In this document: positions 42,866 through 43,208 of the stretch, piece by piece
Layout of the letters: every line of letters starts with the position of its first letter
Position numbering within the stretch: the first letter of the stretch is position 1
Source: an uncultured Alphaproteobacteria bacterium
GTDB lineage: Bacteria; Pseudomonadota; Alphaproteobacteria; RF32; CAG-239
DNA length: 64,000 nt
Direction of reading: 5' to 3'
Assembly (NCBI GenBank): GCA_949493535.1
Contig: CASZWJ010000002.1
Location: 183,165-247,164, forward strand
Translations under genes and position numbers: made by a program
The notes under the pieces: generated by a model
Seen by the model: the letters and a program-made list of their open reading frames with translations, nothing else
Databases searched by the model: none
What the model was told of the DNA's origin: nothing

Positions 42866-42899
42866 AAGCCCCCGTTTTGAAACGGGGGTTTCTTTTTTA
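42866..42899 (+). terminator. Intrinsic terminator of ppiD
   Basis: GCCCCCGTTT / AAACGGGGGT stem with a TG loop, followed by TTCTTTTTT. Confidence 0.9.
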
Positions 42900-42987
42900 T
42901 CTATACCATTCTATATTTTTTATTGCCCAGAATAAACTTTTATTAATTTTCTTTACAAATCGGCATTTTTAATATAGCACTTATAGT

Positions 42988-43185
42988 GAATGTAGAGATA
43001 CATTCAGGGCGTCAGAAACCCTTAATACAATTAGTCGTTAGCATAGCGACTGAAATAATTATGCCGACTTCTGGTCTATGGACGGATGTCGGTGAATAAG
43101 GTCTTGGCCAAATAAGCCGAGCCGTTCTAATTGTATTACGGTTTCTGAACATCCGCCCACCTTTAATTTGGTGGGTTTTGTTTTA
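42988..43185 (+). ncRNA. Candidate structured RNA (about 150-200 nt) with its own terminator
   Basis: A GAATGTA/TACATTC hairpin (42988-43005) precedes a long terminal stem made of 43007-43011 with 43154-43158 (GGGCG/CGCCC), 43012-43020 with 43140-43148 (9 pairs), and 43023-43034 with 43127-43138 (12 perfect pairs). It encloses three hairpins. P3 is 43035-43049 (TCGTTA-GCA-TAGCGA), P4 is 43064-43092 (CCGAC/GTCGG with an inner TCT(G)GTC/GACGGA), and P5 is 43100-43123 (GG(T)CTTGGC/GCCGAGCC). The 43156-43175 terminator shares three bases with the closing stem. No open frame fits. It resembles no RNA family I can name; tmRNA, SRP RNA and RNase P motifs are absent. It may be a free small RNA or the leader of the lipoprotein pair starting at 43209. 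Confidence 0.65.
43156..43185 (+). terminator. Intrinsic terminator of the structured RNA
   Basis: CCCACC-TTTAATTT-GGTGGG followed by TTTTGTTTT. The 5' arm overlaps the 3' strand of the RNA's closing stem (43154-43158), so the two pairings compete. Confidence 0.85.
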
Positions 43186-43208
43186 ACTATAATCAGGATG
43201 TTTAGAAA

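Follow-up and report, generated by a model that had tools for sequence, protein, structure and literature searches.

A probable C4-type antisense-RNA leader with a terminator ahead of surface-protein genes in a family of Alphaproteobacteria

What kind of RNA lies at 42988-43185 of a 64,000-nucleotide stretch of DNA from an uncultured Alphaproteobacteria bacterium (the window, contig CASZWJ010000002.1), and which genes does it serve? The first-pass annotation described a structured RNA there (parts in Table 1), ahead of a pair of lipoprotein genes, and read it as either an independent small RNA or a riboswitch/attenuator.

The structured RNA is genuine, with a minimum free energy (MFE) of -79 kcal/mol against -46.2 +/- 4.4 for shuffled sequences (z -7.4), none of 200 shuffles being equally stable. 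In the MFE fold, the element consists of the P0 hairpin (42988-43005), a closing stem with three hairpins, and a terminator (43156-43183). This is the layout that had been described, though with 22 pairs in the closing stem where 26 had been claimed, and the reported three-base overlap between that stem and the 5' arm of the terminator is a CCC common to both. The element extends beyond the terminator, in that its 3' arm complements the ribosome-binding site (RBS) of the lipoprotein gene. The closing stem of this first-stage fold is made up of the helices a1:a' and b1:b'; additional GGGC/GCCC pairs at its base were dropped, distant relatives supporting the H1 hairpin instead. The only match to a promoter consensus within 42952-42987 is weak (TCGGCA-16-TATAGT, 42960-42987, 9/12), and a -35-like CTTTACA/CTTGATT is found at the equivalent place in most copies. 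The peptidyl-prolyl isomerase-like gene upstream is followed by a strong terminator hairpin at 42866-42891, which makes it probable that the leader is transcribed as a unit of its own. By eye, many relatives carry a hairpin of altered sequence at the position of P0. None of the evidence involves Hfq, whose gene the annotation had pointed out in the window.

Table 1. Features of the leader and of the adjoining genes, in window positions
Feature	Position	Strand	Basis or remark
Probable promoter of leader, TTTACA ... TATAGC/TATAGT	42952..42987	+	inspection
P0, 5' hairpin GAATGTAGAGATACATTC	42988..43005	+	fold
H1 hairpin AGGG/CCCT, loop contains a1 (TCAGAAA, 43012-43018)	43006..43022	+	covariation, covariance-model match
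b1 AATACAATTAG, 5' strand of long-range helix P2	43024..43034	+	covariation
P3 hairpin AGTCG/CGACT, loop GCATA (43041-43045)	43033..43051	+	97.8% paired
P4a, GCCGAC (43063-43068) with GTCGGT (43088-43093)	43063..43093	+	99.6% paired
sRNA-Xcc1-like / C4-like RNA, outer stem with P4b, P5 and P6 inside	43080..43166	+	RF02221 match
Outer stem, GGACGGATG with CATCCGCCC, then ACC	43080-43088 with 43150-43158	+	RF02221 match
P6 hairpin GCCGT/ACGGT, loop b' (CTAATTGTATT, 43127-43137)	43121..43142	+	covariation
a' plus anti-Shine-Dalgarno TTTCTGAACATCC	43142..43154	+	pairs with leader a1 or RBS
Intrinsic terminator CCCACC/GGTGGG + T-run	43156..43183	+	5' arm overlaps outer stem by CCC
a2, RBS GGATGTTTAGAAA, complement of 43142-43154	43196..43208	+	13 contiguous pairs
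Lipoprotein gene 1, 115 aa	43209..43556	+	phrog_7441 match
Lipoprotein gene 2, 116 aa	43556..43906	+	weak similarity to gene 1

Compensatory changes, for which a check had been proposed, are abundant. A covariance model (R1) was built from 45 copies, all of them from Alphaproteobacteria of the source's bacterial family, and across these copies the full helix set (H1, a1:a', b1:b', P3, outer stem, P4b, P5 and P6) was paired in 94.7% of cells, falling to only 34-44% when the partner was shifted by 1-3 columns. Doubly changed cells numbered 162 against 48.7 in shuffles (0/500). The long-range helix P2 (b1:b') was compensated at 7/7 counted pairs and P1 (a1:a') at 3/6; H1 was paired in 97% of cells, with a full-length match to the covariance model, and P6 in 97.8%, its CCGU/ACGG changing to CCAU/AUGG with compensation. 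Kinship of P6 with group II intron domain V (GAGCCGU...ACGGUU) was dropped; this same change occurs, and the loop is b'. The P3 loop GCATA can form a pseudoknot with TATGC at 43060-43064, for which cognate pairing was stronger than permuted pairing (duplex energy -4.48 vs -3.50, 0/2000). P4a draws on some of the same bases as two helices of the Xcc1-type fold, the outer stem and P4b, and excludes them, which gives two competing folds. In the 45-copy alignment the outer stem shows hardly any variation, and one of its strands is a third copy of the anti-Shine-Dalgarno (anti-SD)/SD motif (GGATG, GGGTG or GGAAG).

The second partner of the 3' part is the start of the downstream gene. In the window, UUUCUGAACAUCC faces GGAUGUUUAGAAA in 13 contiguous pairs, one of them G-U, that end at the AUG, and the longest run at 38 control ORF starts in the window is 5-8 pairs; by duplex energy, the cognate site (-18.5) ranks fourth, behind three of these control starts. 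We ran permutation tests, in which the relatedness of the sequences was ignored, on a near set, a distant-alpha set of 16 copies and an Xcc1 set. Between 5' domain and 3' part, cognate pairing was -33.7, -31.3 and -37.1 kcal/mol, respectively, vs -22.3, -19.8 and -26.8 for non-cognate pairing (each 0/2000). Between RBS and 3' part, cognate pairing was again stronger than non-cognate pairing in the near (-15.9 vs -14.3, 0/2000), distant-alpha (-14.7 vs -12.7, 4/2000) and Xcc1 sets (-22.2 vs -15.9, 0/2000). The control pairing of RBS with 5' domain gave a signal only among the 16 distant-alpha copies, where it was weak (36/2000), and none in the other two sets. Thus, in all groups the 3' part of the RNA is complementary both to its own 5' domain and to the downstream RBS. 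Anti-SD and SD change in step (AACATCC with GGA in 80 copies, AACACCC with GGG in 8, wobble in 2), and the base next to them covaries too (32/5000). Several family copies have only 7-9 contiguous RBS pairs, and cognate RBS pairing in the near set was just 1.6 kcal/mol better than non-cognate pairing, so copies may cross-react. In Xcc1 and phage members the target around the SD is often split in two, into the blocks a2 and b2; b2 is clear in these members, and none was seen in the window.

A reading frame follows the element in 82/87 copies, and in 80/87 the start codon lies 40-70 nt after the core; most of these genes encode a lipoprotein, an adhesin, a pilin or another exported protein. The analysis upheld both the placement of the element as a leader for the lipoprotein pair and the competition between its closing stem and the terminator, but not the notion that the locus might always stand upstream of these lipoproteins, as the source genome holds five copies and the others precede unrelated genes. 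Targets in the near group include lipoproteins, autotransporter-like adhesins, type IV pilin-like proteins, outer-membrane barrels, glycosyltransferases and others (several named by eye from sequence), and no metabolic theme or common pathway was found among the target genes. In the copy-rich genomes sampled, the leader stands mostly before a family of Cys-rich exported proteins. This family is large, with the motif C..LGY..SC...G.KCPFG..WAC (L312, L317, L322, L318 and similar; G098, G112, G117, G129), and each copy read had its own leader copy. The gene 1 lipoprotein belongs to the phage protein family phrog_7441 and has ~33% identity to Salmonella and Klebsiella phage proteins adjoining tail genes. 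The leader precedes its close homologues in 4/5 cases; in the fifth (G054), the lipoprotein pair adjoins phage tail and internal virion genes and is without the leader. Two phage homologues have too little upstream space for a leader, so the leader may be a later addition to the lipoprotein gene.

As the annotation had found by eye, no RNA family could be assigned at the Rfam threshold. The best match was sRNA-Xcc1 (RF02221), at 28.8 bits over model positions 1-87 and below the gathering score of 53; no match to 6S RNA, the known family that had been named, appeared up to E 10, and the other Rfam matches up to that value were taken as noise. The best RF02221 score in the bacterial family (46.7 bits) is likewise under the cutoff. 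The window and other family copies have the RF02221 layout, an outer stem around inner hairpins over positions 1-87, and RF02221 also matches distant copies in other alphaproteobacterial families, to which the 5' domain is common. The 3' half of the element is a divergent relative of sRNA-Xcc1.

Matches to RF02221 above its cutoff were found in 39/398 Pseudomonadota genomes. Upstream of most of 30 loci read from among the strongest of these, we recognized by eye a domain with H1/a1, b1 and a P3-like hairpin (unclear or not seen in L262, L270, L278 and L279; L265 left out), and the genes directly 3' encode SymE, Bro-N, KilA-N, Rha, P22_AR_N or unknown small proteins, and ORF6N in Aeromonas. Among phage matches, 5/6 inspected directly precede annotated antirepressor or KilA-N genes, and R1 has a full-length match (E 8e-4) to the ant leader in phage Aaphi23. 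Xcc1 members of phages and other genomes have the same 5' domain, and the RBS of the antirepressor-type gene or symE is covered by a two-block a2 + b2 pairing. Because the 5' domain and a target gene flank most of the Xcc1 loci read, the Rfam family sRNA-Xcc1 appears to represent no more than the 3' half of a larger leader. The RNA itself is ~88 nt long, with its 5' end mapped to the outer stem by RACE in Xanthomonas (PMC2996969), and its position upstream of symE was already known (PMC12444791). A c4-2 RNA match below threshold (L263, 2890-2958) is situated ~1.3 kb away from one Xcc1 copy on the same strand, and in Xylella fastidiosa strain De Donno the C4 and Xcc1 matches are a few hundred bases apart.

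These relatives bear on how the element works. The complex pseudoknotted fold with its invariant core positions, an expression platform with terminator and anti-SD, and the several unrelated genes per genome would all suit a metabolite or ion riboswitch, whose 5' domain would bind a ligand and set terminator against antiterminator, with SD sequestration as a second output. We consider this improbable, however, since the sequence of the most variable helices, a1:a' and b1:b', is found again at the RBS that Xcc1 and phage relatives target, which is antisense logic, since phage relatives precede antirepressor genes, and since the targets lack a metabolic theme. The steady spacing to the start codon and the covariation of the anti-SD with the RBS of its own downstream gene also make it quite improbable that the element is a free-standing trans-acting sRNA, comparable to that of Xanthomonas, whose position before the lipoprotein is incidental, even though it has its own terminator and probable promoter, and RF02221, which carries an sRNA annotation, was detected as a ~88-nt RNA. 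Between the two options first proposed, the evidence favors a combination, a leader with an antisense RNA against the RBS of its own gene.

R1 matches were found in 105/126 genomes of the bacterial family, and five copy-rich genomes held 19-54 copies each; sequence-pattern matches, which include chance ones outside Alphaproteobacteria, were left out of these figures. Some copies stand in tandem (L214, 2015-2126 and 2300-2416; L245, 1501-1655 and 1742-1892; G080 C48, 5988-6447), with no gene between the two in L245. Two genomes of the family have stretches identical to records of Azospirillum sp. CAG:239 and of an uncultured Alphaproteobacteria bacterium, and many further matching public records come from faeces, rumen or colon samples; given these records and sample origins, the hosts of the leader are most likely gut Alphaproteobacteria. 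Multiple identical copies had been named as a sign of a mobile element, and a MITE- or REP-like repeat spread by transposition without a regulatory role would fit five copies here, up to 54 in one genome, inverted ends and the tandem pairs, but is highly improbable with copies that are only 76-83% identical to that of the window (DNA search), follow the coding strand and keep a constant spacing to the genes they precede, show covariation at the RNA level and change in step with each gene's SD sequence. Fixed distance before unrelated genes and covariation with each gene's RBS argue that the copies are not a passive repeat. An integron attC site was dropped as well, since copies are scattered before genes.

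We therefore regard the locus as probably a C4-type antisense-RNA leader with a terminator, acting in cis and in trans and domesticated for surface genes. Homology, the covarying helices, the two rival pairings, the match to the RBS in cis and the gene context are observed; transcription, processing, repression and the inducing condition are inferred. A single transcript would run from a 5' decoy domain (with a1 in the H1 loop and b1 in P2) through the ~88-nt Xcc1-like RNA with its antisense segments (a' with the anti-SD, and b') and the terminator to a2. In the nascent leader, a' and b' would pair back to a1 and b1 as the closing stem, occupying the anti-SD, and most transcripts would then stop at the terminator. 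By analogy with C4, RNase P would probably cleave at the outer stem and free the 3' half, the presumed processing site being the 5' end of the 43080-43166 RNA. Once freed, a' and the anti-SD would pair with the RBS up to the AUG and block translation, either in cis, on RNA that has read through the terminator, or on other transcripts in trans; a trans role besides the cis one is likely. This model is based on C4 biochemistry (PMC5320573) and on a predicted shift in anti-SD:RBS pairing probability from 0.09 in the full leader to 0.91 without the 5' domain (folding ignored pseudoknots; a' was taken as 43143-43155, shifted by one base from 43142-43154). A gut alphaproteobacterial family appears to have taken over a phage-type device before its surface-protein genes. 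More speculatively, and on balance doubtfully, the leaders could form a genome-wide surface-protein switchboard, in which dozens of paralogous exported proteins each have their own antisense RNA. Cross-silencing groups would be set by anti-SD and RBS variants, with each member's RNA shutting off the rest of its group, so that surface display would be ordered or mutually exclusive without any DNA rearrangement.

In Xanthomonas and Xylella, sRNA-Xcc1 has so far been regarded as a trans sRNA linked to virulence. As the 3' half of a C4-like leader, its adjoining gene is suggested to be its first target (antirepressors in phages, symE in cassettes), and the surface-gene copies indicate that an uncultured gut lineage has made a lysogeny-control device of phages into a common means of controlling the translation of its surface genes. 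Both claims are open to simple reporter tests. In a literature search conducted mostly without subscription papers, we found no paper linking sRNA-Xcc1 to antirepressor control and came across no account of its 5' domain or of the expansion ahead of surface genes. Homologues of sRNA-Xcc1 in vesicles of Xylella fastidiosa have been read as virulence sRNAs (PMC12189769), and the leader reading may apply to them.

Compared with sRNA-Xcc1 in its known settings (Xanthomonas, and integron cassettes upstream of symE), the window leader has the same outer stem and inner hairpins, and most of the above-threshold members read here likewise have the 5' domain and a complemented downstream RBS; it differs in its U-tailed terminator, the lack of a visible b2 and its surface-protein targets. 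Like riboswitch leaders that control a terminator or sequester the SD, it has mutually exclusive helices that would control both, but here the signal appears, in our model, to be RNA-RNA pairing. In P1, the a1-b1 segments of the C4 system are positioned ahead of the small RNA, with which the motif name c4-a1b1 is consistent. RNase P cuts C4 of phages P1 and P7 at the outer stem, a' and b' act against the RBS, and chromosomal C4-like copies are known in Acinetobacter (PMC5320573). The Rfam C4 (RF01695) and c4-2 (RF02944) models gave no match in the window region, and the C4 models none at the Xcc1 copies, so kinship with C4 rests on layout, and the window copy, which reaches neither threshold, was filed under neither RF02221 nor RF01695. 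That layout is shared in its a1-b1 segments, its small RNA with a', b' and an outer stem, and a target over the RBS, and phage copies of the Xcc1-type leader target an antirepressor-type gene, as C4 does. As in C4, a' is complementary to the RBS of the gene downstream on the same predicted transcript (13 pairs in the window; three permutation sets), the upstream decoys a1 and b1 form covarying helices with a' and b', and an outer stem beginning with GG and an RCC after the core in 67/87 copies are consistent with an RNase P site. Unlike in C4, a' with the anti-SD covers the window RBS from SD to AUG, no b2 was seen in the window, and window-type leaders target lipoproteins, adhesins and pilins. 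The best reading is that the window copy works like a C4 leader.
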